Assembly: GCF_000341735.1 (NCBI RefSeq)
Contig: NZ_KB455575.1
Span: forward strand, 1,453,422 to 1,517,421
Length of the DNA: 64,000 nucleotides
Source: Methylotuvimicrobium buryatense 5G
Lineage (GTDB): Bacteria > Pseudomonadota > Gammaproteobacteria > Methylococcales > Methylomonadaceae
Reading direction: 5' to 3'
Under the pieces are notes generated by a model. That model did not search any database. It saw nothing but the letters and a program-made list of their open reading frames with translations, and had not been told where the DNA came from. Position 1 is the stretch's first letter; each line of letters begins with the position of its first letter. The translations under genes and the position numbers were made by a program. This document shows positions 6,537-49,676 of this stretch, piece by piece.

Positions 6537-6692
6537 TATACCATCGCAGATCAAAATGCGGCACCAGGGTGCCCGTCAAAGGACGCCGTAAATACGTCCA
6601 TGGCTCTATGCCAGCTCCATGCTGGCAAAGCCTTTGCCGAACACCCCGGCGCCTCCTTGAGTGCAGTCGAAATTTGATGTGCGCAAGGTATA
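6537..6692 (-). repeat. Family T interspersed repeat
   Basis: A complete copy in reverse orientation, from TATACCATCGCAGATCAAAA to GTGCGCAAGGTATA. The core has the GCCAGCTCCATGCTGGC hairpin variant. It lies between convergent genes, 50 nt from the hpnR stop. Confidence 0.85.
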
Positions 6693-6742
6693 TCTGTCAA
6701 ACCGATAAAGCAAACAATTTCCATATTATGAAACGAGTCTCG

Positions 6743-8302
6743 TTAAGACTCGCTCAAGGCGCCCCGGCTTTCATCGACGAATTTTTCGGTATCGTCATCC
6801 AACTGCCGACTCGTCCGCCCTAACGGCTCGTGAACATACAGCGACTTAGATAACGCCTTGGCGCTGGAAAATTTAGCGTCTTTAACCGGCGGCTTCATTT
6901 GATATTTAACCGGCATTTGATGGTCGGCCAATTGCAATGCCGGATTGAATACTTTATCGAATTTAAACAGATTCTTCGCAAAGTTCGTTTGACCGCGCAT
7001 TAAATTGCCGACCAAAACCTTCGTCACATCGCGCATAGCCGCCCACCCCATGTGCTTAGTAAACATCACACGCTGAGTTTCGACCAATTCCGCGTAAAAC
7101 TCCTCTATCGGTAAACGCGTCGGCAACACCGCATGTTGAATATCGAACAATCGATAATCGCGGGTCGTCAAATTACGCGACTCGGTCAGCCAACTTTCGG
7201 TTCCCGGATAAGGCGTATTGACGCTGATATTAACGATTTCAGGAACTTCTTTACACCATTCCCTGACCACACGGAAACGCTCGTGGTCCCAGTCGGTATC
7301 GGCAATGATGTTGATCGCGACATTGATACCCAGAGTCCGCGCAAACTCTAAAGCCTCGAAATTACGACTCAAATCAATACGTTTACGATATTTTTCGAGC
7401 CCGTCCTGATCGATCGACTCGATACCCAAGAACATGTAGCTCATCCCAAGCTCCTTCCAGAACTTGAAGACGTCTTTGTTACGCAGCAAAACATCACCGC
7501 GCGTTTCCAGATAATATTCTTTCTTAATGCCTTTCCGAGCCAAGGCCTCGCCGATTTCGAAGCCCATTTTTTCTTGAATAAATGCGACATCGTCGACAAT
7601 GAAAATACCGGGCTCGCGAATTTTTTCCATTTCTTCGACAACTTTATCGGGACTCATCACGCGATAACTTCGTCCATAGAATGTCCAAGCACTGCAGAAC
7701 GAACAGTCCCACGGGCAACCTCGGGAAAATTCGATCGACGCACAAGGATCGAGCGTACCGAGAAAATATTTATTACGATGTCGGACTAAGTCGCGAGCCG
7801 GCGCAAGATTGTCAAGATCAGGGATAAACGTCGGCTGTCCGCCCTCGCCTTTCATCGTCACCACACCGGGCACGTCATGAACGTTTTCTCTATCTTCTTT
7901 AATAGCTTGTAATAACAAAGGAAGACCCGACTCGCCCTCCCCTTTGAGAATAGCATCAAGACTGCCTTCGCCGTGTTCCAATAATTCTTCGGCGGTAAAC
8001 GACGCACTATGCCCGCCGATAAAGACAAAACTCTTCGGCAAACGAGCTTTCACGGCTTTGACGAGATCGATGACCTCGGGAACATTGGCCAAATAATTCA
8101 ACGAGAAACCAACGATATCGGGTTGCCAATCGTCCATTAACCGAAATAAATCTTGATGAGACTCTACTTGCAAGTCGATCAACCGTGTATCGTAACCTTG
8201 CCGCCGGGCCGTTTCGGCAACTTGTTCCAACCCAAGCGGTTCAAGGCGTAAAAACACCTTGGTATACATCAGCGGGCTAGGATGAACAGCAAGAAATTTC
8301 AT
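6743..8302 (-). CDS. hpnR: Hopanoid C-3 methylase (B12-binding radical SAM)
   Basis: A 519-residue protein with an N-terminal cobalamin-binding domain (about residues 1-150, with VGFSLNY and FIGGHSASF) and a radical SAM core whose cluster motif is RGCPWDCSFC (CxxxCxxC). HpnR of Methylococcus is known to methylate hopanoids at C-3, a lipid feature of aerobic methanotrophs. The start MKFLAVHPSPLMYTKVFLRL and the C-terminal region after the radical SAM barrel fit that family and its length. A good AAGGAG precedes the ATG. Identification as HpnR is from overall resemblance; another B12-radical SAM methyltransferase of the same clan is the main alternative. It is divergent from the unknown gene at 8712, and no other hopanoid gene is adjacent. 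Confidence 0.85.
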   Translation of the reverse strand: MKFLAVHPSPLMYTKVFLRLEPLGLEQVAETARRQGYDTRLIDLQVESHQDLFRLMDDWQPDIVGFSLNYLANVPEVIDLVKAVKARLPKSFVFIGGHSASFTAEELLEHGEGSLDAILKGEGESGLPLLLQAIKEDRENVHDVPGVVTMKGEGGQPTFIPDLDNLAPARDLVRHRNKYFLGTLDPCASIEFSRGCPWDCSFCSAWTFYGRSYRVMSPDKVVEEMEKIREPGIFIVDDVAFIQEKMGFEIGEALARKGIKKEYYLETRGDVLLRNKDVFKFWKELGMSYMFLGIESIDQDGLEKYRKRIDLSRNFEALEFARTLGINVAINIIADTDWDHERFRVVREWCKEVPEIVNISVNTPYPGTESWLTESRNLTTRDYRLFDIQHAVLPTRLPIEEFYAELVETQRVMFTKHMGWAAMRDVTKVLVGNLMRGQTNFAKNLFKFDKVFNPALQLADHQMPVKYQMKPPVKDAKFSSAKALSKSLYVHEPLGRTSRQLDDDTEKFVDESRGALSES

Positions 8303-8711: not shown

Positions 8712-9965
8712 ATGAAATTAATTATAAAACTATTGTTCTCATCGCTTTTGGTTTTTCTGGTCCTGACTATCACCTTACTGGTGCTAGTCGTGGAAGACAA
8801 ACCCAAGCTAAGAGCAAGACCTGATATCACCCCCGAGCAAATAGCTAGAGGAAAACAAATTTTTGTAGAAAACGACCCGCGACGCCTAGCAACCGGCACG
8901 ATAGCAAGAGCCAGCATTGAACAGAGAGACCTGGACCTAGCCGTCAATTATTTCGTCAATCAATATTTCGGCGGCGTTGCCGGTTTAACAATCAAACAAG
9001 ATCGAGCCATCATTGAAAGCACTCTAAAACTACCTTCAAACCCACTGGGCAATTATTTAAACTTAACAATCGAACTCAAGCAAACACATAGTCTTCCTGA
9101 AATCGACCATCTATCGTTGGGCAAATTAAGAATACCCGGACTTATAGCAAATAATTTAAGCAAAAGTATCTACAGCCTTATGCTGCCGGATGCCGATTGG
9201 AAGGCGCTTCAAGCCATGATCAGAAAGGTCAGATTCATCAACAAACGAATGATCGTGACTTATAAATGGCATGAAAATTTACCGACCAAACTCAGCGGCG
9301 CTCTTTTACCCGAACAAGAACAGCATCGAATTGAAGTTTATCAGCAACGTTTGGTAATGCTAACACGCCCCTCCAAAAAGCACTTGAGTTTAACCGAGCT
9401 CACGCAACCCTTATTTCAATTGGCAAACGAACGCAGTCGCCGAAGCGACCCGATTGGTGAAAACCGTGCCGTCATTCTGGTGCTAACGTTATACGCCAAC
9501 CGTTTAACGCTTAATAAAATCATTCCTTCACTAAAAAGCCAATATCGTCCGATTTGGCGAACCGTGACTCTCAATCAACGCAACGATTTAAGCAAACATT
9601 ATTTAGTATCGGCTACGCTTGCAGCCTATGCCGGCACGCCATTGGCCGACGCCATAGGATTATATAAAGAACTGGAAGATTCGAGAGGCGGCAGCGGCTT
9701 TTCATTCATCGATATGACCGCCAATCGGGCCGGCACGCTCATGGGCGAGCTCGCCGTGCAAAATCAATCGCAAGCCAGAAAAATTCAAGATTTTATGAGC
9801 ACGGCCCAAGAGCGCGACATCATCCCGAAAACAGCCGACTTACCCGAATATCTTGCAGAACAGGAATTTAATCGACTCTACGGCGGTTTAGAAGGCCCCG
9901 CCTATCAGAAAATGATGCAAAAAATAGAGCATCGAATCGCCCAATTACCGATTAACAAACAATAA
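8712..9965 (+). CDS. Conserved-looking membrane-anchored protein, function unknown
   Basis: A 417-residue protein, not recognised. It opens with a hydrophobic anchor (about residues 4-27, LLFSSLLVFLVLTITLLVLV) and then a long hydrophilic body expected outside the cytoplasm. There is a short ITPEQIARGKQIF segment near residue 40, which resembles the start of cytochrome-type domains, but no CxxCH is present. The centre and C-terminal part are helix-rich, with a YLVSATLAAYAGTPLADAIG stretch and a GGSGFSFIDMTANRAGT stretch that looks like a small-residue active or binding loop. Its neighbours are hpnR (divergent) and the sterol reductase (convergent). It is shared with neither operon, so a lipid role is only a guess. 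Confidence 0.7.
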   Translation: MKLIIKLLFSSLLVFLVLTITLLVLVVEDKPKLRARPDITPEQIARGKQIFVENDPRRLATGTIARASIEQRDLDLAVNYFVNQYFGGVAGLTIKQDRAIIESTLKLPSNPLGNYLNLTIELKQTHSLPEIDHLSLGKLRIPGLIANNLSKSIYSLMLPDADWKALQAMIRKVRFINKRMIVTYKWHENLPTKLSGALLPEQEQHRIEVYQQRLVMLTRPSKKHLSLTELTQPLFQLANERSRRSDPIGENRAVILVLTLYANRLTLNKIIPSLKSQYRPIWRTVTLNQRNDLSKHYLVSATLAAYAGTPLADAIGLYKELEDSRGGSGFSFIDMTANRAGTLMGELAVQNQSQARKIQDFMSTAQERDIIPKTADLPEYLAEQEFNRLYGGLEGPAYQKMMQKIEHRIAQLPINKQ

Positions 9966-9998
9966 ACAGAGCTCCGATTTCTATTCGCCGTCCCAATA

Positions 9999-10149
9999 GC
10001 ATTAAATTAAGCCGTTCGTGGTGAGTCTGTCGAACCATGGATGGCTTAATTTATCGACTCGGACGCCTCCATTCCCCTTCGACAAGACTCTCCTGAGCGC
10101 AGCCGAAGGGCCCAAGACGAACGGAAAAGTCCTTTTTACTTAATGGCAT
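9999..10149. repeat. Family P interspersed repeat (TTCGACAGGCTCAGGGCGAA type)
   Basis: About 150 bp, bounded by GCATTAAATTAAGCC and a degenerate inverted TTACTTAATGGC. It contains CCGTTCGTGGTGAGTCTGTC and a matching CCTTCGACAAGACTC arm. It is a diverged copy of the element at 49543-49676, lying between convergent genes. Confidence 0.75.
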
Positions 10150-10160
10150 TGCGTTCTCCG

Positions 10161-10196
10161 TCACCCGCGCACCGAATTTTGATCTACGATGGGTAT
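10161..10196 (+). repeat. Family T right-end remnant
   Basis: Carries only the right terminal part, GCACCGAATTTTGATCTACG followed by ATGGGTAT. It ends 14 nt past the stop of the sterol reductase gene. Confidence 0.6.
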
Positions 10197-10210
10197 GTAT
10201 CGCGAAATCC

Positions 10211-11494
10211 TTAGTAAATTTTTGGCACGATACGCCAAGGCACCTTTTTCCGGTATTGCAACCAATCTTCGCCGTACTTCGCCAAGCACATCGCATCATC
10301 GCGCTTTTCTCTATGCAGAAGCAAAATGGTGAAATATACGATATGGAAATAAGGTATGGGGCTACCGAAAGCAGCGGGCAAACACCACGAGAGTGCAATC
10401 ATTAAATCGCCGAAGTAATTCATGTGACGAGCAATGCCCCACCAACCGGAAGTCAGTAATAATGAACCTTGCTTGGTTTTGATATATTTTGCCGGCTTCC
10501 CCCACACGATCCGGTTTGGATCGCGCCGAAAATGATGCTTTTGGATATTGGCGCCCCGAAAAATTGTATAACCGGCCAAATTCAAAGCCACAATAGCAAT
10601 AATGCCCCATACGGGCAGGTCATGGGTATGATGGACCAAATACTGAGCCTGTAAGGTATAGGTAAAAGGCAGCCACACCAAGTCGCCCCAACAAAGCATC
10701 CAGCCAAACTTCTCATGCTTGATATCCCAAGTCGTCAGGACGGCTTCTTCATGAATAAAGTAATCGATCAAATAAAAACTTTGAAACCCCACCACCAGTA
10801 ACATCGGGACAGTCACCGTGCCGTGCAATTCATACTGTTTGGCCGCCATCGAAAGATTCATCAGTAACCAAAAAATCATGCCGGGGCGGGCTTCGCAAAA
10901 CAGCTTGAGATCAAGAGATCCAATCCGTGGGTTAAGCGCCGTTCCCATGAAATAATCATAAAAAGGACGTCCGGTCGGCCGCTCCCATTGCTTCCCGTTT
11001 AAGCCCCAAAAATAGAGAAAACCCGCAAAAACAAAGGTAAAAATATTCACTACAGTAAGCAATGGGCCGAGTTGGTCATACAAAATGGTAGCGTCCAACC
11101 ACCCCATCGTTACCAAACCGAACACCACGGCCAGGGTAAAAAGGAAAGAAAATATTCCATTCATCCGATAATCGAGCCGACTGCCGTCAGGCAATTTCAT
11201 GCCTTGAACGGTCGGACCAGGCGCCCAAACCTGCAACGCGGCCTGACCTAAAAACCAAGCCGCGTAAAGGCCTGCGGCTTGCCAGGTCGGCGGCGAAACA
11301 TGAGACCAAAACCGCCGCCAAGCCTCCGCGTCGCTAGTGAAGATCAGCTCGCCTTGGTAATAAGTGACGCAAATCCACAAATAATAGACCAGTGGCGGCA
11401 ACGCTATCATGAGCACAAGCCAGGAAAAGCCGAAACCGTATTTCTGACGAACCGCATCCGCGGCCGCATTGTCTCTCGATTCTTGTTCACTCAT
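10211..11494 (-). CDS. Sterol C-14 (delta-14) reductase, ERG4/ERG24 family
   Basis: A 427-residue integral membrane protein with about eight to ten hydrophobic segments. It matches the ERG4/ERG24 sterol reductase family, which reduces ring or side-chain double bonds with NADPH. The conserved C-terminal signatures are clear: LLTSGWWGIARHMNYFGDL, then YFHIVYFTILLLHREKRD, and the closing KYGEDWLQYRKKVPWRIVPKIY. A few methanotrophs are known to make lanosterol-derived sterols in which C-14 demethylation leaves a delta-14 double bond, so a delta-14 reductase is the best assignment; delta-7 or delta-24(28) reductases belong to the same family. A strong AAGGAG precedes the ATG. It is the second gene of an operon with the ERG2-like gene, 19 bp away. 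No cyclase, epoxidase or CYP51 is in the window. Confidence 0.88.
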   Translation of the reverse strand: MSEQESRDNAAADAVRQKYGFGFSWLVLMIALPPLVYYLWICVTYYQGELIFTSDAEAWRRFWSHVSPPTWQAAGLYAAWFLGQAALQVWAPGPTVQGMKLPDGSRLDYRMNGIFSFLFTLAVVFGLVTMGWLDATILYDQLGPLLTVVNIFTFVFAGFLYFWGLNGKQWERPTGRPFYDYFMGTALNPRIGSLDLKLFCEARPGMIFWLLMNLSMAAKQYELHGTVTVPMLLVVGFQSFYLIDYFIHEEAVLTTWDIKHEKFGWMLCWGDLVWLPFTYTLQAQYLVHHTHDLPVWGIIAIVALNLAGYTIFRGANIQKHHFRRDPNRIVWGKPAKYIKTKQGSLLLTSGWWGIARHMNYFGDLMIALSWCLPAAFGSPIPYFHIVYFTILLLHREKRDDAMCLAKYGEDWLQYRKKVPWRIVPKIY

Positions 11495-11513
11495 TATCCG
11501 CTCCTTTTCAGCA

Positions 11514-12083
11514 TTAGAACTTCTGATTGACTATCAGCTCCCGTAGCGCCATTTTGCCGTATAACCAAACTGTCTCGGCCAAGGTCGTCCCATCGACGGC
11601 ACTGAATACCACATCGCCTAAAATAAGCGGAAAAGCGGATGGTATGAATCCTCGACCATATTCCAACATCCAAGCCGATTCAGGGATTTTAAACCCATTG
11701 ACGCTACCACGTTCCAGAACGGTATGATCGCCCGGCCCTGCCACTTCGCGTACTCCACAACGGTCTTTCCGATAAGTCCAAACCTCACCGGCCATAAAAA
11801 AATCATGAATCTCCATACGGTAGCGACCGGAAAAGCCTTCCGTACCCACCGGCGTTCCGAAGATGATCAGATATTCAGTGAAAGATGCATGGAGTATCGT
11901 CATCACACCGGTCGCGCCCGCCGTCAAGCTGAATAGCCATCGGCGATTTGGATTGGAATCGACGTGATTGGGATAGGCCCGGGAGGTTTCTTCCACTATC
12001 ACGCTCACCATTTCGTCGTGGGGCTTTCCGATTCCTTGCAGAGCAATCTCATGAAGACGATCGATATCGAATATATAACTCAC
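11514..12083 (-). CDS. ERG2 / sigma-1-receptor-like sterol isomerase
   Basis: A 189-residue protein that aligns along its length with the ERG2/sigma-1 receptor family (fungal sterol C-8 isomerase, animal sigma-1 receptor). Seen in order: YIFDIDRLHEIA, the WLFSLTAG strand, MTILHASFTEYLIIFGT (residues 61-77), GTEGFSGRY, EIHDFFMAGE, PGDHTVLERG and WMLEYGRGFIPS. D94 and E141 stand where the paired acidic residues of the sigma-1 ligand pocket (D126, E172) lie. The GTG at 12083 is chosen because AAAGGAGGA lies just before it; an ATG further upstream would read into a repeat. From this start the protein lacks the N-terminal membrane helix of eukaryotic members. It is co-transcribed with the delta-14 reductase, so a role moving the sterol ring-B/C double bond is inferred. 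Confidence 0.88.
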   Translation of the reverse strand: MSYIFDIDRLHEIALQGIGKPHDEMVSVIVEETSRAYPNHVDSNPNRRWLFSLTAGATGVMTILHASFTEYLIIFGTPVGTEGFSGRYRMEIHDFFMAGEVWTYRKDRCGVREVAGPGDHTVLERGSVNGFKIPESAWMLEYGRGFIPSAFPLILGDVVFSAVDGTTLAETVWLYGKMALRELIVNQKF

Positions 12084-12133
12084 TGACTTCCTCCTTTGTC
12101 GAGCACGGCGGATGTTAAGGAATATACACGAAC

Positions 12134-12294
12134 TATACCCTTTGCTAGTCAAATTTCGGCGTCGGGGTGCCCGTCAAAGGACGCCGTGAATACGTCCATG
12201 TAGGCTCTATGCCAGCTCCATGCTGGCAAAGCCTTTGTCGGACACCCAGGCGCCTCCTCAGGCACTGCCGAAATTTGAAGTGCGAAAGGTATAT
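12134..12294 (-). repeat. Family T interspersed repeat
   Basis: A complete reverse-oriented copy from TATACCCTTTGCTAGTCAAA to TGCGAAAGGTATA, with core hairpin GCCAGCTCCATGCTGGC. It starts 50 bp upstream of the ERG2-like start codon, in what should be that operon's promoter region. Confidence 0.85.
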
Positions 12295-12363
12295 AACGGG
12301 AATAACTTTCCGAAACAGTAACGTTGATGGGGCCTGGTAATCACCACGGCAAATGAAAGTACG

Positions 12364-12495
12364 AGTCGATAAGTTAAGCCGTCCATGGTTCGACAGACTC
12401 ACCACGAACGACTTAACTTAATGGCAGCGAACGCTAGGTGTAGGACCGAGAACCCTAAGCGCCCGCACTGCCGGAATTTGAAGTGCGAAAGGTAT
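12364..12495. repeat. Half family P element followed by a family T end remnant
   Basis: 12364-12426 is a half copy of family P (AAGTTAAGCCGTCCATGG ... CTTAACTTAATGGCAG). 12461-12495 is a family T end (CACTGCCGGAATTTGAAG then TGCGAAAGGTATA), only 3 nt from the stop of the minus-strand gene at 12499. Confidence 0.65.
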
Positions 12496-12498
12496 AGC

Positions 12499-14745
12499 TT
12501 ATTTCCAAACACTCATAATGCTAGTGAAATCGTCCGTCCATGAACGAGCATCGGCATAATGAGGCACTCTTTGCCAATTATTCTGCAAGTCGGCATTGAC
12601 CAAAGGCGTGAGGTCCGCCTCATTTCTAGCCAAAATAGCCCAATCCGATCGATAGACAAAAGGAATGTTTTGCTCAGGCCTGAATTCTTGCAACAACAGC
12701 GTCAATCCCAATTTTTCCGCATGATCCGCCAACACCTTCTTCAGCTCCAGATAACGATTGGAAATGTGAAAAACCAACAAACCGTGATTTTCCAACCTGG
12801 AAAAATACAACTCCAAAGCTTCCTTGGTAAGCAAATGGGTCGGTATCGAATCCGAAGTAAACGCGTCGATAACCAATAAATCAAAAGGATTCGGTTGATT
12901 TTCCAATGTGATTCTGGCGTCCCCGACTTGAATATCGTAACCGCTGATACAATCCGTTAAATAAGTAAAATACTCGGGGTTCGTTGCGATCTGCACAACG
13001 GCCGGATCGAGTTCGAAAAATGTCCAGTGTTGAGATGCTTTGGCGTAACCGGCCATCTCTCCGGCTCCAAGACCGACAACGCCGATCCGCCAAGCGTTAT
13101 TTCGGTTGTTGTAATTACCAAAAATGGAGCCTAAAGGCCCTTGCGGACTGTAATATCCGTTCGGCGTACATTGTCGATTGACATCGTTCAGTAACTGCAA
13201 GCCATGCCGAGTTGTACCGCTATAAATTTCATGCAATGTGTGCGTAGTATTGTCGACATTGAGATCCGAAATTTTCTTGACCGACAATACGCCATAAAAA
13301 TTTCGGCTTTGATGCAAGAGCTGGTCTCCGCCTTGATGCTTTTCCGGCGCTGCGCAGGACAATACCAACAGCCCAACCAGGGGAAAATACAACGAATTTT
13401 TTTTAAATAGAAAGTAAGCGGCGCCCATTAGAGCAATGATCGCAAAACTGATGAGAAATGCATCGTCCAGTTGTTTGACGCTGATCGATAAAATAACCGC
13501 GAAGGTAATCAAATAAGCGCTAAAGATAATTTTCGCCAAATGTTCCTTAACATACTGACCAAAGCCATTGATTGGGTTCAAAAGCAATGCGCAAACGATC
13601 ATAAGCGGGTATTCGTAAATCGAGCTGAATATAAATGGCGCGACAAAGCTATTAAAAATACCGCCGAGCATGCCGCCGAAGGACATGACTAAATAATACT
13701 GAGTCAGATAGTCTGTCGAGGGGCGTTTCTTGGCTAACTCGCCATGACAGACCATGATGCATAAAAAGAAAATGAATAAATGAATAAATAATTCGATTGA
13801 AAAAGAAGCCAGTTTTTGATTCGAAAAATAGTAAATCAAAAATGGTGCAACCAGCCAGGGCTGTATCAATAATATTTTTCTATGAATCGCCGCACCGTAG
13901 CCGGAAAAGACCAGAATGAATGAGAATAAATACAAGGCTAAAGGAATAACCCATAACAGCGGCACCGTGGCGATATCGATGCTGATGAAATTAGTCGTGC
14001 CCAATAATAAACTGGAAGGCACAAACGCCAATAATAACCATTGAATTTGTAATTTCAGCTCGGGCTTTTCGACTAGATTAACCTGCGATGCCTTATTGAC
14101 TGCAGGCTGAAAATGCTGCTGTTTTAGAATTAGCATACACAATGAAATCAAGCCTATCAGTACAAGAAAACCCGCACTCCAATATTGCTGTTGCTGACTA
14201 ATACCGATGGCGGGCTCCAGTAAAAAAGGATAGCTCAATAACGCAATCAAACTACCGGCATTACTGGCGATCGAAAGATAGTAAGGATCGTTACTGGTTT
14301 GATGGCCGATTTTTGAGAACCACTTTTGCAATAGGGGCGAGTTAGTGGACAACACGAAAAACGGCAAGCCTATCGACACGAATAAAGTCGACAACAACCA
14401 AATACTGGGATTTTCCGAACTGGGCGGCCGGCTACCCTCAGGGATACTTACCGGAAGGAAATAAAGGCTGATAAGCAGTATCGAAAGATGGATGGCAAGA
14501 TGTTTTCGATAACCAAAGCGAGTGGAAAGAAAATGGGCATAGAGATAACCCAGAAAGAGGATGCTCTGATAAAACACCATACAGGTATTCCATACGGATG
14601 CAGAGCCGCCTAATAAAGGCAAAAGCGCTTTCCCAAACATCGGTTGTAAAACAAACATTAAAGAAGCACTGCTGAATAACGTCAACGCGAACAAGAATAT
14701 AGGAAAATTATCGCGTCTGATTTCACTATGATGTGTAATGTCCAT
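12499..14745 (-). CDS. Membrane-fused spermidine synthase-like protein
   Basis: A 748-residue fusion of an N-terminal multi-spanning membrane region (about residues 15-470, ten or more hydrophobic segments) with a C-terminal methyltransferase-fold domain like spermidine synthases. In the latter, IGVVGLGAGEMAGYA is the nucleotide or aminopropyl-donor glycine loop, TFFELDPAVVQIA supplies the acidic residue, and LLVIDAFTSDSIPTHLLTKEAL is the family's catalytic aspartate segment. Such fusions are widespread in bacteria and mostly uncharacterised; polyamine synthesis is not proven for them. It is monocistronic on the minus strand, flanked by repeats downstream and a 580-bp gap upstream. Confidence 0.8.
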   Translation of the reverse strand: MDITHHSEIRRDNFPIFLFALTLFSSASLMFVLQPMFGKALLPLLGGSASVWNTCMVFYQSILFLGYLYAHFLSTRFGYRKHLAIHLSILLISLYFLPVSIPEGSRPPSSENPSIWLLSTLFVSIGLPFFVLSTNSPLLQKWFSKIGHQTSNDPYYLSIASNAGSLIALLSYPFLLEPAIGISQQQQYWSAGFLVLIGLISLCMLILKQQHFQPAVNKASQVNLVEKPELKLQIQWLLLAFVPSSLLLGTTNFISIDIATVPLLWVIPLALYLFSFILVFSGYGAAIHRKILLIQPWLVAPFLIYYFSNQKLASFSIELFIHLFIFFLCIMVCHGELAKKRPSTDYLTQYYLVMSFGGMLGGIFNSFVAPFIFSSIYEYPLMIVCALLLNPINGFGQYVKEHLAKIIFSAYLITFAVILSISVKQLDDAFLISFAIIALMGAAYFLFKKNSLYFPLVGLLVLSCAAPEKHQGGDQLLHQSRNFYGVLSVKKISDLNVDNTTHTLHEIYSGTTRHGLQLLNDVNRQCTPNGYYSPQGPLGSIFGNYNNRNNAWRIGVVGLGAGEMAGYAKASQHWTFFELDPAVVQIATNPEYFTYLTDCISGYDIQVGDARITLENQPNPFDLLVIDAFTSDSIPTHLLTKEALELYFSRLENHGLLVFHISNRYLELKKVLADHAEKLGLTLLLQEFRPEQNIPFVYRSDWAILARNEADLTPLVNADLQNNWQRVPHYADARSWTDDFTSIMSVWK

Positions 14746-15329: not shown

Positions 15330-16610
15330 ATGAAAACAACACTAATCCTGACAGTTACACTGATTCTCGGTGTCATTGCGTACTTGGCTTACCGTCCCGG
15401 TACTCATGATGCCTCATCGGACTATACCGTTTTCCAGCATGTCGAGGCATGCAAAGCTGAACTTGGAATCACCCGAAAATTGCCGGTACTCTCATGCTTG
15501 GATGGAACACAAGTGCCAATTTATGTCGATAAACAAGAAATTCAAGAAGACAACTGGGAAAAACTACTCTCAAACTCGAAAAGATGCGACAACCCTCACT
15601 GGCTCGGCGGCGATATGGGCTGCTGGACCTACTCGCATTTACAAATTAAGCAACTCGACGACGACAACATCATGGTGCTCAACTGCCGGCAAAAAGGGAA
15701 TCAATTCGAAAAAGATTGGTTTCGAAAATCCAAAGCCAATCTCGGCATGAACCAGCAGCAAAGAAAAGAACGCTTTGAGAAAGCGTCTAGCGCCGAGAAA
15801 ACCGAACTCTATTATCTTTACAATACTTTTAACGATATCGGCATTATCCTTCGGAATACAAAAACAGGAAAAAGTTGTTATCTCACTCAATATGGCGAAG
15901 CAGTGGTCGGTTTTTTACCGCCCCTCGATGCCCCCCTGCCTAGCAAGGACGATTATTTAGATCAATACAATAAGGAGCAAACAAGACCACCGAAAGACTT
16001 TCCGCAGGATCTTTGGTACCGTGATGCCAACCAGGCTTTTAAATCTCCGGCGTTTACCGCGGAAGCCGGTTGCGTTGCCTGCCATAATGCGCACGGTGTC
16101 AAATACAGTCCGTACATTAATTCAAAACACGGCCTACCGGATATTTATACGATGGCGCCTTTACCCTTTTTAGCGGTTGGCAAGCCTTTTCAAAATTTCT
16201 TCAATAATCATAATATTCTCCAGATTACAACCGACCCTATCGATGGCAAACAGCAACTCTGTACTCAGTGCCATAAAATGACGACCTCGGGAACCTGTGG
16301 CTACAGTTTTGAATTTGCCACGGGACATCCCGATAAAACACTGAGTACTTGGCTCACCTCAGGGCCGAATGAAAGAAACTGGATGCCGCCGATTACCGTG
16401 GCCCCGGACGTGATAAAAAAACATGTCGCCGTAATGAAATGCTGTTGCGACAACCCTCAGTCCCAAGGATGCAAAACCCGCAAATTCGGTCCGACACTTG
16501 CCGACCTTCCTAAAGGTTTCCATGAAGGCAAAGGTTGGGTTAGCGGCCAAGAGCCTGGCCTTTGCAAAGACATTATGGAGTCCTACCAATGGAATGCCGA
16601 CAAGTTTTGA
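15330..16610 (+). CDS. Membrane-anchored diheme c-type cytochrome-like protein, unknown
   Basis: A 426-residue protein starting with an uncleaved-looking signal anchor (residues 3-21), so the rest is placed in the periplasm. Two heme c attachment sites are visible, CVACH at 248-252 and CTQCH at 311-315, each in a short cysteine-rich context. The protein has many other cysteines, including C41, C56, C86, C98, C119, C183, C323, C371-C373 in a row and C381, far more than heme binding needs, which suggests several disulfides or a further metal site. No family was recognised. It has a good AGAGG ribosome site and stands alone between repeats. A respiratory or electron-transfer role is inferred from the heme sites only. 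Confidence 0.75.
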   Translation: MKTTLILTVTLILGVIAYLAYRPGTHDASSDYTVFQHVEACKAELGITRKLPVLSCLDGTQVPIYVDKQEIQEDNWEKLLSNSKRCDNPHWLGGDMGCWTYSHLQIKQLDDDNIMVLNCRQKGNQFEKDWFRKSKANLGMNQQQRKERFEKASSAEKTELYYLYNTFNDIGIILRNTKTGKSCYLTQYGEAVVGFLPPLDAPLPSKDDYLDQYNKEQTRPPKDFPQDLWYRDANQAFKSPAFTAEAGCVACHNAHGVKYSPYINSKHGLPDIYTMAPLPFLAVGKPFQNFFNNHNILQITTDPIDGKQQLCTQCHKMTTSGTCGYSFEFATGHPDKTLSTWLTSGPNERNWMPPITVAPDVIKKHVAVMKCCCDNPQSQGCKTRKFGPTLADLPKGFHEGKGWVSGQEPGLCKDIMESYQWNADKF

Positions 16611-16623
16611 TTCCATTCCAAGA

Positions 16624-16780
16624 TATACCTTTCGTACTTCAAAATTCGGCAGGTGACTAAGGAGGCACCGGGATGCTCGACAAAGGCTTTGCCAGCATGG
16701 AGCTGGCATAGAGCATGGACGTATTCACTGCGTCCTTTGACGGGCACCCCGGCGCCGAATTTTGATCAACGATGAGTATA
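16624..16780 (+). repeat. Family T interspersed repeat
   Basis: A complete copy beginning TATACCTTTCGTACTTCAAA and ending AACGATGAGTATA, with core hairpin GCCAGCATGGAGCTGGC. It starts 13 nt after the stop of the diheme gene. Confidence 0.85.
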
Positions 16781-17320: not shown

Positions 17321-17414
17321 GAGAGCTCCAGCTTGGGTAACCTGTTCAGGAAGCTCTAGCTTCCCGCAATCAAGAAAGATTAAACGAGCGAGCGAGATGT
17401 GGGTTGGTCGTTTT

Positions 17415-17574
17415 TATACCTTTCGCACTTCAAATTTCGGCAGTGTCCGAGGAGGCGCAGGGGTGTCCGACAAAGGCTTTGCCGGCATGGAGCTGGCATA
17501 GAGCCTACATGGACGTATTCACGGCGTCCTTTGACGGGCACCCCGGCGCCGAATTTTGATCTACGATGGGTATA
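17415..17574 (+). repeat. Family T interspersed repeat
   Basis: A complete copy, TATACCTTTCGCACTTCAAA to CTACGATGGGTATA, close to the family consensus. Confidence 0.88.
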
Positions 17575-22575: not shown

Positions 22576-22734
22576 TATACCCATCGTAGATCAAAATTCG
22601 GCACCGGGGTGCCCGTCAAAGGACGCCGTGAATACGCCCTATAGGCTCTATGCCAGCTCCATGCTAGCGAAGCCTTTGTCGGACACCCCGGCACCACCTC
22701 GGGTACTGCCGAAATTTGAAGTGCGAAAGGTATA
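22576..22734 (-). repeat. Family T repeat inserted between hoxY and hoxH
   Basis: A complete reverse-oriented copy, from TATACCCATCGTAGATCAAA to TGCGAAAGGTATA, starting 20 nt after the hoxY stop. It splits an otherwise tight operon. The remaining 175 bp before hoxH hold no gene; a stretch around 22755-22885 (CGCAGAGGCTCAAAGGCG and CTCTGCGCCTCTGCGCG) has another inverted, repeat-like layout. Confidence 0.85.
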
Positions 22735-29137: not shown

Positions 29138-29298
29138 TATACCTTTCGCATTTCAAATTTCGGCAGAGCCTCTAGGAGGCGACGGGGTGCTCGGCAAAGG
29201 CTTTGCCAGCATGGAGCTGGCATAGAGCCTACATGGACGTATTCACGGCGTCCTTTGACGGGCACCCCGGCGCCGAATTTTGACCTCCAATGAGTATA
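29138..29298 (+). repeat. Family T interspersed repeat
   Basis: A complete copy from TATACCTTTCGCATTTCAAA to CCAATGAGTATA with the GCCAGCATGGAGCTGGC hairpin. Between it and the alr stop (29365) are 66 bp without a gene. Confidence 0.85.
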
Positions 29299-32146: not shown

Positions 32147-32354
32147 TATACCTTTCGCACTTCAAATTTCGATAGTGCCGGAGGAGACCTCGGGGTGTCC
32201 GGTCGATTTTCGCTCCTGCAAAATCGACATTCACGCCATCCATAGCGTTCATAAAGGCTTTGCCAGCATGGAGCTGGCTAGAGCCTACATGGACGTATTT
32301 ACGGCGTCCTTTAACGAGCACCCCGAGGCCGAATTCTCATCTACGATGAGTATA
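32147..32354 (+). repeat. Family T repeat, long variant with extra hairpin
   Basis: A 208-bp copy, TATACCTTTCGCACTTCAAA to CTACGATGAGTATA. It carries an extra module at 32202-32228, where GTCGATTTT pairs with AAAATCGAC, followed by ATTCACGCCATCCATAGCG. It ends 14 nt past the trpS stop. Confidence 0.85.
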
Positions 32355-34995: not shown

Positions 34996-35281
34996 ATATA
35001 TCCTTTGCTACTCAAATTTCGGCTCAGGGACGTCCTGTCCAGCGAGTTACCTAACCCTCAACAAAGCTCATATACCCATCGCACTTCAAATTTCGGCATT
35101 GACGCATGGAGGTGCCGGGGTGTTCGGTCGATTTTTGCTCCTGCAAAATCGACATTCACGCCATCCATGGCGCTCGCAAAGGCTTTGACAGCAGGGATGC
35201 TGTCACAGAGCCTACATGGACGTATTCACGACGTCCTTTGACGGACACTCCGGCGCCGAAATTTGACCAGCAAAGGGGATA
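34996..35281 (+). repeat. Family T remnant plus complete long-variant copy
   Basis: A left-end remnant lies at about 34996-35025, 23 nt after the DUF1249 stop. A complete 211-bp copy occupies 35071-35281, with the extra hairpin at 35127-35153 (GTCGATTTT/AAAATCGAC) and the TGACAGCA-GGGA-TGCTGTCA core hairpin. The rest of the gap to 35457 holds only the promoter region of the TetR gene. Confidence 0.82.
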
Positions 35282-49542: not shown

Positions 49543-49676
49543 CACTGCCATTAAGTTAAGCCGTTCGTGGTGAGCCTGTCGAACCATGGACGGCTTAACT
49601 TATCGACCCAGGATTTTTCCATTCACCCTTCGACAGGCTCAGGGCGAACGGAAAAATCCTTAACTTAATGGCAGTG
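49543..49676. repeat. Family P element, complete, with target duplication
   Basis: A 134-bp element with perfect 18-bp inverted ends (CACTGCCATTAAGTTAAG, 49543-49560, and its complement at 49659-49676). The 11 bases ATGTAGAGCGA directly flank both sides (49532-49542 and 49677-49687), indicating insertion. Inside are the CCGTTCGTGGTGAGCCTGTC and TTCGACAGGCTCAGGGCGAA arms. The gap from 49688 to 49865 has no gene. Confidence 0.9.

Follow-up and report, generated by a model that had tools for sequence, protein, structure and literature searches.

Architecture of the ERG2/Sigma-1 Family Locus

The window, by which we mean the whole 64,000-nucleotide stretch of Methylotuvimicrobium buryatense 5G DNA analyzed here, carries a gene of the ERG2/sigma-1 family followed on the same strand by a gene for a sterol C-14 reductase.

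12090..12097, minus strand: ERG2 ribosome-binding site AAAGGAGG, 6 nt before the GTG
11514..12083, minus strand: ERG2/sigma-1-family gene, 189 aa with a GTG start (PF04622, sigma-1 PDB chains, and a start common to 11 Methylococcales genes)
11495..11513, minus strand: 19-bp intergenic gap; the ribosome site of the reductase, AAGGAG, lies in it 6 nt upstream of the ATG
10211..11494, minus strand: ERG4/ERG24-family sterol C-14 reductase, second gene of the pair, 427 aa (PF01222, PDB 4quv)

The ERG2 open reading frame begins with the GTG at 12083, and its stop codon ends at 11514 on the minus strand. The initial annotation had recognized an ERG2/sigma-1 homologue by its conserved blocks and had proposed a profile search, whose failure would have spoken against the proposal; the search gave a strong match. 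The 189-aa protein scores 173.9 bits against Pfam PF04622 (ERG2_Sigma1R; E 3.8e-51, cut-off 21), with residues 2-186 aligned on profile positions 21-209 of 210, and thus lies above the cut-off over the domain; the same profile matched 0 of 14 control genomes. Among PDB chains, only sigma-1 chains were matched (E 9.5e-31 to 9.3e-34), and the protein is 36-37% identical to sigma-1 receptors. A scripted check located HAS at residue 65, SGRY at 85, and WMLEYGRG at 138, together with D94 and E141, while searches of NCBIfam, PHROGs, and PADLOC at E 0.001 returned no match. Judged by these sequence comparisons, the window protein is a new member of the known ERG2/sigma-1 family. Structure prediction from seven sequences (the window protein and those from six relatives' loci) gave a poor model, with a mean pLDDT of 34.4.

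Eukaryotic ERG2 and sigma-1 proteins carry an N-terminal membrane helix, which the initial annotation had reported missing here. The mechanical list of open reading frames favors an upstream TTG for ERG2 (212 aa). The 189-aa start is the position at which all 11 Methylococcales genes align, and in 5 of these the open frame 5' of it spans only 4-13 codons, not enough for a membrane helix. In the alignment with sigma-1 chains, residue 2 falls at their residues 35-40. Within the first 30 residues, the best mean hydropathy over 19 residues is low in all 12 bacterial ERG2 proteins compared (0.34-0.95), in agreement with the absence of the helix. The stretch of the profile that is matched (21-209) would not include such a helix, and the PF04622 membership of the window protein is therefore unaffected. 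In the 11 Methylococcales proteins, hydrophobicity peaks in a stretch that starts at residue 145 (mean 1.5-1.8), where ERG2 could possibly make peripheral contact with the membrane.

The reductase scores 412 bits against PF01222, and all of its residues 1-427 are matched by the solved C-14 reductase of PDB entry 4quv, "Delta(14)-sterol reductase" (1002 bits), which we take to be MaSR1 of Methylotuvimicrobium alcaliphilum. A crystal structure of MaSR1 from that organism is mentioned in PMC12489058 (this and the other papers are cited from excerpts of their text). The spacing of 19 bp that had been noted between the two genes is confirmed, and so are the ribosome sites, with an AGGAG-type site 6 nt upstream of each start in the window. 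The gap ranges from 19 to 24 bp across all 11 Methylococcales pairs, with the reductase second in each, and the two genes are presumably co-transcribed as a two-gene unit. A promoter and terminator scan of positions 9950-12600, compared with shuffled sequence, gave one promoter-like site (4.2 in shuffles) and six terminator-like sites (3.2 in shuffles), with neither kind at the start or end of the pair.

Sterol Genes Elsewhere in the Genome

A PF13243 search of the genome returned four matches, one of which is a 750-aa oxidosqualene cyclase. It adjoins a squalene epoxidase (PF08491, 269.6 bits); a 200-aa ORF and a 543-aa P450-ferredoxin fusion (PF00067 with Fer4 domains) also belong to the cluster. 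We assign the P450 as CYP51 because it is fused to a ferredoxin and encoded next to Bsr, an arrangement described in PMC13277303. The 200-aa ORF had no Pfam match and carries Y37, Y43, Y78, Y80, D133, and D136, all six pocket residues tested for 8,14-Bsr, at their published numbers (PMC13277303). That paper describes 8,14-Bsr as an NTF2-fold protein that makes the delta-8(14) bond in Methylococcus capsulatus, on the basis of expression in E. coli. It also reports that CYP51 of M. capsulatus yields a delta-8,14 sterol in E. coli and names delta-8(14) as the characteristic sterol type of Methylococcaceae.

The host therefore has an upstream sterol pathway, with squalene epoxidase, cyclase, CYP51-ferredoxin, and Bsr in one cluster and the C-14 reductase beside ERG2. 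The initial annotation had held that an absence of sterols and of cyclase and CYP51 genes would speak against its proposal; both genes are present. On their common contig, about 3.0 Mb separates the ERG2-ERG24 pair from the cyclase cluster, or 2.0 Mb in the other direction if the contig is circular.

Distribution and Co-occurrence of ERG2 and ERG24

A PF04622 search found ERG2 in 11 of 311 Methylococcales genomes and in 5 of 50 genera. PF01222 gave a match of any kind in 35 of the 311 and in 0 of 14 control genomes; high-scoring ERG24 occurred only in the 11 genomes with ERG2, covering profile positions 14-432 or more in ten of them and lying in two pieces on two contigs in G244. The other 24 genomes showed C-terminal matches of at most 27.7 bits, two of them just above the Pfam cut-off of 27. 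ERG2 and ERG24 are adjacent in all 11 genomes.

We found 8,14-Bsr in 112 of the 311 genomes, including every ERG2 carrier. Under random placement, all 11 carriers would fall within the 112 with a probability of 9.5e-6, and two sets of 11 would coincide exactly with a probability of 1.8e-20; these figures disregard shared ancestry and serve as a guide only. An oxidosqualene cyclase at least 74% identical to the window genome's own is present in 10 of the 11 ERG2 genomes. In G244 (72% complete, 5% contamination), no true oxidosqualene cyclase was found, only a 25%-identity match that is probably a hopene cyclase.

The closest match with an organism name came from Methylomicrobium sp. wino1, whose ERG2 protein is 92% identical. 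A single-protein scan of genome contigs returned six loci (L002-L007) labeled Methylomicrobium, Methylococcaceae, or Methylococcales; these belong to the 11 counted genomes and add none. ERG2 was present in 9 of 201 genomes of a family-level sample (all inside the Methylococcales count), in 2 of 369 genomes of a Gammaproteobacteria sample (the window genome and G483), and in 1 of 398 genomes of a Pseudomonadota sample, the window genome itself. Plasmid records gave no ERG2 match, and a viral-contig scan, which detects close relatives only, confirmed none.

G483 is a gammaproteobacterium of another order, in which ERG2 was found in 1 of 2 genomes. Its 184-aa ERG2 is 42% identical to the window protein and scores 209.7 bits. 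The gene immediately upstream, with the same orientation, belongs to the ERG24 family (253.8 bits), so that the order seen in the methanotrophs is reversed. Elsewhere in that genome is a cyclase-like gene 35% identical to the window genome's cyclase. The G483 pair occupies L062 9058-12029, and an FA_hydroxylase gene is close by. The occurrence of two gene orders favors consecutive enzyme steps, the reversed order being known from one genome.

We consider it likely that ERG2 is a delta-8 to delta-7 sterol isomerase without a membrane helix, made with the C-14 reductase from the two-gene unit and serving a branch beside Bsr. The pair would thus probably make a sterol type additional to the one usual for methanotrophs. 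The initial annotation had proposed that ERG2 may set the ring-B/C double bond of bacterial sterols, which is not supported as worded: in M. capsulatus, delta-8(14) is made by 8,14-Bsr, and the presence of Bsr in 112 and of ERG2 in 11 of the 311 genomes indicates that ERG2 can provide only an alternative branch in a minority, so that the methanotroph double bond is not in general set by it.

It is unlikely that ERG2 instead converts delta-8 (or delta-7) to delta-8(14), which would give a further route, following the C-14 reductase, to sterols of the methanotroph type. We know of no tested ERG2 that forms delta-8(14). An isomerase step to delta-8(14) has been raised for dinoflagellates and C. 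elegans, and sterols of this type are characteristic of Methylococcaceae (PMC13277303). Such an activity would, however, be redundant in all 11 ERG2 genomes, as each has the one-step Bsr.

The Acidic Pair of the Sigma-1 Pocket

In sigma-1 receptors, D126 and E172 constitute the acidic pair of the pocket. The PDB entries 5hk1 and 7w2b are, we assume, the human and Xenopus receptors, and the human numbering taken from 5hk1 presumes a four-residue tag offset. In the 5hk1 alignment, E141 of the window protein aligns with E172 and D94 with D126; the initial annotation had placed both at positions of the sigma-1 ligand pocket. We compared the pocket across 12 bacterial ERG2 members (11 from Methylococcales and the distant G483) and two sigma-1 sequences. 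Every one of the 12 bacterial members has E141, as do the two sigma-1 sequences. D94 is shared by the two sigma-1 sequences and by 11 of the 12 bacterial members, namely those from Methylococcales. In the D94 column, G483 has cysteine, with an aspartate two columns before it that adjoins a one-residue insertion. Around D94, the spacing of the window protein is of the sigma-1 type and that of G483 is not. A loss of these residues in close homologues, named beforehand as an outcome that would tell against the proposal, was not seen in the 11 close homologues, which keep both, but D94 is not retained in the distant G483.

These observations also bear on the idea that ERG2 has no catalytic activity and partners the C-14 reductase as a sigma-1-like sterol binder or chaperone. 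Sigma-1 has the same pocket without isomerase activity (PMC4967820), ERG2 occurs only with the reductase (11 of 11), and the D94 region of the window protein has sigma-1 spacing. The cysteine, rather than an acidic residue, at the D94 column of G483 led us to weight this explanation up slightly and the isomerase reading down. Even so, the pairing of both families in opposite order in two distant lineages is what would be seen for consecutive pathway enzymes, and we regard a purely non-catalytic role as quite unlikely.

History of the Locus within the Genus

9980..12430 (ends approximate), no strand: segment missing from G037 and G078, flanking genes conserved
10000..10064, plus strand: left copy of an imperfectly palindromic dispersed repeat of ~65 nt (inverted pair I1, 92% complementary to 12359-12423)
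12359..12423, minus strand: right inverted copy of the ~65-nt dispersed repeat

The ERG2-ERG24 pair is present in four of the six genus genomes searched and absent from G037 and G078. At the empty sites lie 737 bp (L115 7729-8465) and 283 bp (L116 9324-9606) of other sequence, respectively, flanked in both genomes by HpnR and by two ORFs, one of 417 aa and one, spermidine-synthase-like, of 748 aa. The sequence at these sites includes pieces of repeats that are present in the window.

In the cyclase tree, the pair-bearing G093 (partial, 587 of 750 codons) falls outside the other five genus members with support 1.0, which makes loss in G037 and G078 simpler than repeated gain. On this simpler reading, the pair was lost within the genus, once or twice. 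That tree does not group G037 with G078 as sisters, which weighs against the certainty of loss. The Bsr tree has a support of 0.15 at the point that bears on pair loss, and the two flanking-gene trees, with five taxa and no outgroup, conflict on G060. Possible lateral transfer of the pair between genera was examined in the ERG2 and ERG24 trees: genera g12 and g23 are intermingled in both, at weak support, and the ERG2 tree places G244, from another family, beside G194 (support 0.97). The G037 cyclase was suspected of being broken but is not regarded as a pseudogene: its TAA terminates the protein only five codons early, and the remaining frame is open.

The ERG2 gene has dN/dS values of 0.045-0.213 in the 8 pairs computed out of 55 possible, 3 of the 8 with saturated dS (> 1.5), indicating that it is under purifying selection where present. 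These values are difficult to reconcile with a laterally acquired unit of little or no host role that is being lost in parts of the genus. Such an account draws on the absence of the pair from two of six genus members, in which the site is otherwise conserved, its patchy occurrence in 5 of 50 genera, and the dispersed repeats that flank it in the window. The ribosome sites in the window and the spacing conserved in all 11 pairs argue against it, as does the position of G093, which has the pair although it lies outside the other genus members, so that the pair appears long maintained where present. We judge a negligible host role very unlikely.

The two inverted copies of the ~65-nt repeat bracket ERG2-ERG24, and a third copy lies near 49549-49635. 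The wino1 genome (L027) carries the pair at this location as well; its DNA match to the window covers the left copy and ends before the right one. A different dispersed intergenic repeat of ~148 nt is found at 12149-12296 and in eight further places in the window as matches of 82-156 nt (1060-1215, 6551-6693, 16623-16765, 17412-17559, 22591-22734, 29138-29284, 32253-32333, and 35177-35275), in addition to shorter ones.

Among the neighboring genes, the hopanoid C-3 methylase HpnR (6743-8302, minus strand; TIGR04367, 874 bits against a cut-off of 650) is one gene away from the pair, an order repeated in G010 and G060. Positions 12499-14745 (minus strand) encode the 748-aa protein, which has a spermidine-synthase-like end (NF037959, 50 bits) and no Pfam match; G037 and G078 each have two copies of it, 97% and 52% identical. 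A 426-aa protein with CXXCH-type motifs is encoded at 15330-16610 (plus strand), with a sub-threshold match to TIGR01905 (20.6 against 25.2 bits).

A Proposed Fork in the Sterol Pathway

The family assignment, the linkage, the co-occurrence, the host sterol genes, and the purifying selection are observations; from the sequences, we infer catalysis by ERG2 together with its chemistry, substrate, and product. If ERG2 is a delta-8 to delta-7 isomerase, CYP51 would supply a delta-8,14 sterol, which the C-14 reductase, by the activity named for 4quv, would reduce to a delta-8 sterol. ERG2 would then protonate and deprotonate ring B by means of E141 and D94, giving a delta-7 sterol. Should the host retain the C-4 methyls, the ERG2 substrate would be a 4,4-dimethyl delta-8 sterol. 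8,14-Bsr would compete for the same CYP51 product and convert it to delta-8(14), so that the pathway would fork.

A more specific version of this scheme is plausible, if somewhat short of likely. Here the CYP51 product would go either to delta-8(14) by way of the bacteria-only Bsr or to a 4,4-dimethyl delta-7 sterol by way of a eukaryote-type C-14 reductase and an unanchored, minimal ERG2. ERG2 would accept C-4-methylated sterols, with isomerization before or instead of C-4 demethylation. Eukaryotic ERG2 normally works after C-4 demethylation, which is also a point against the isomerase reading.

The strongest point against the isomerase reading is that the excerpted table of Wei et al. 2016 lists no delta-7 sterol for M. 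alcaliphilum, the only compound marked, as we read the tab positions, being 4,4-dimethylcholest-8-en-3-ol. The same table puts the M. capsulatus sterols under delta-8, whereas PMC13277303 calls them delta-8(14), a conflict which indicates that the table does not separate delta-8 from delta-8(14). Going only by this table entry for M. alcaliphilum, the host may retain its C-4 methyls. A second point is that sigma-1 receptors have kept the fold and the acidic pair while isomerase activity is absent (PMC4967820), so that PF04622 membership does not prove catalysis. The absence of the pair from two of six genus members and the lack of a true oxidosqualene cyclase in G244 also count against the isomerase reading.

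Relation to Known Systems

Methylotuvimicrobium is stated to have "a C-14 reductase and C-8 isomerase" in an excerpt of PMC13277303 (2026) that names no family, and this C-8 isomerase is presumably the window ERG2 gene. C-8 isomerization is mentioned for a Calothrix cluster (PMC10202945), and an EBP homologue has been reported for the myxobacterium Nannocystis (PMC10152446). We found no functional test of a bacterial ERG2 in the excerpts of open-licence literature. The description of bacterial members as little described is accurate for their function; their presence is in print (PMC13277303, PMC9531527). The existence of the gene pair is thus essentially published already. As far as the compared excerpts go, what is new is the co-occurrence in 11 of 311 genomes, the adjacency in 11 of 11, the two empty sites, the reversed pair of G483, and the lack of an N-terminal helix in 12 members.

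According to PMC13277303, delta-8(14) sterols are used as biomarkers of aerobic methanotrophy. Should a few genera of methanotrophs also make delta-8 or delta-7 sterols with eukaryote-type enzymes, such sterols alone would be weaker evidence of eukaryotes. With so strict a pairing, and with close relatives that have or lack the pair, a clean genetic test can be made. Moreover, a short bacterial ERG2 could yield the structure of a catalytic relative of a drug target, the sigma-1 receptor.

The window protein can be likened through the Pfam profile to fungal ERG2, with which it shares the family over the domain and the partnership with an ERG24-type C-14 reductase, the neighboring reaction type. 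It differs from fungal ERG2 in having no N-terminal membrane helix, in the adjacency of the two genes, and in a substrate that may bear both C-4 methyls. With the sigma-1 receptor (PDB 5hk1, 7w2b), it has in common 36-37% identity, the acidic pair, and the SGRY and WM.EYGRG blocks; unlike sigma-1, which is reported to be without isomerase activity, it lacks the N-terminal helix, comes from a bacterial host with sterol genes, and is encoded beside a sterol reductase. EBP-type isomerases catalyze the same delta-8,7 reaction but belong to a non-homologous family (PMC4967820). 8,14-Bsr resembles the proposed isomerase in acting on the sterol pathway at the CYP51 product, in setting a ring double bond, and in being present in the window genome, whereas it belongs to an unrelated protein family, reaches delta-8(14) in one step, and occurs in 112 rather than 11 of the 311 genomes. 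The sterol clusters of sponge symbionts, as excerpted from PMC9531527, hold ERG24 with CYP51 and the cyclase, and several of them include ERG2. In those symbionts, ERG24, CYP51, and the cyclase thus share one cluster, whereas in the window genome the pair stands about 3.0 Mb from the cyclase cluster.
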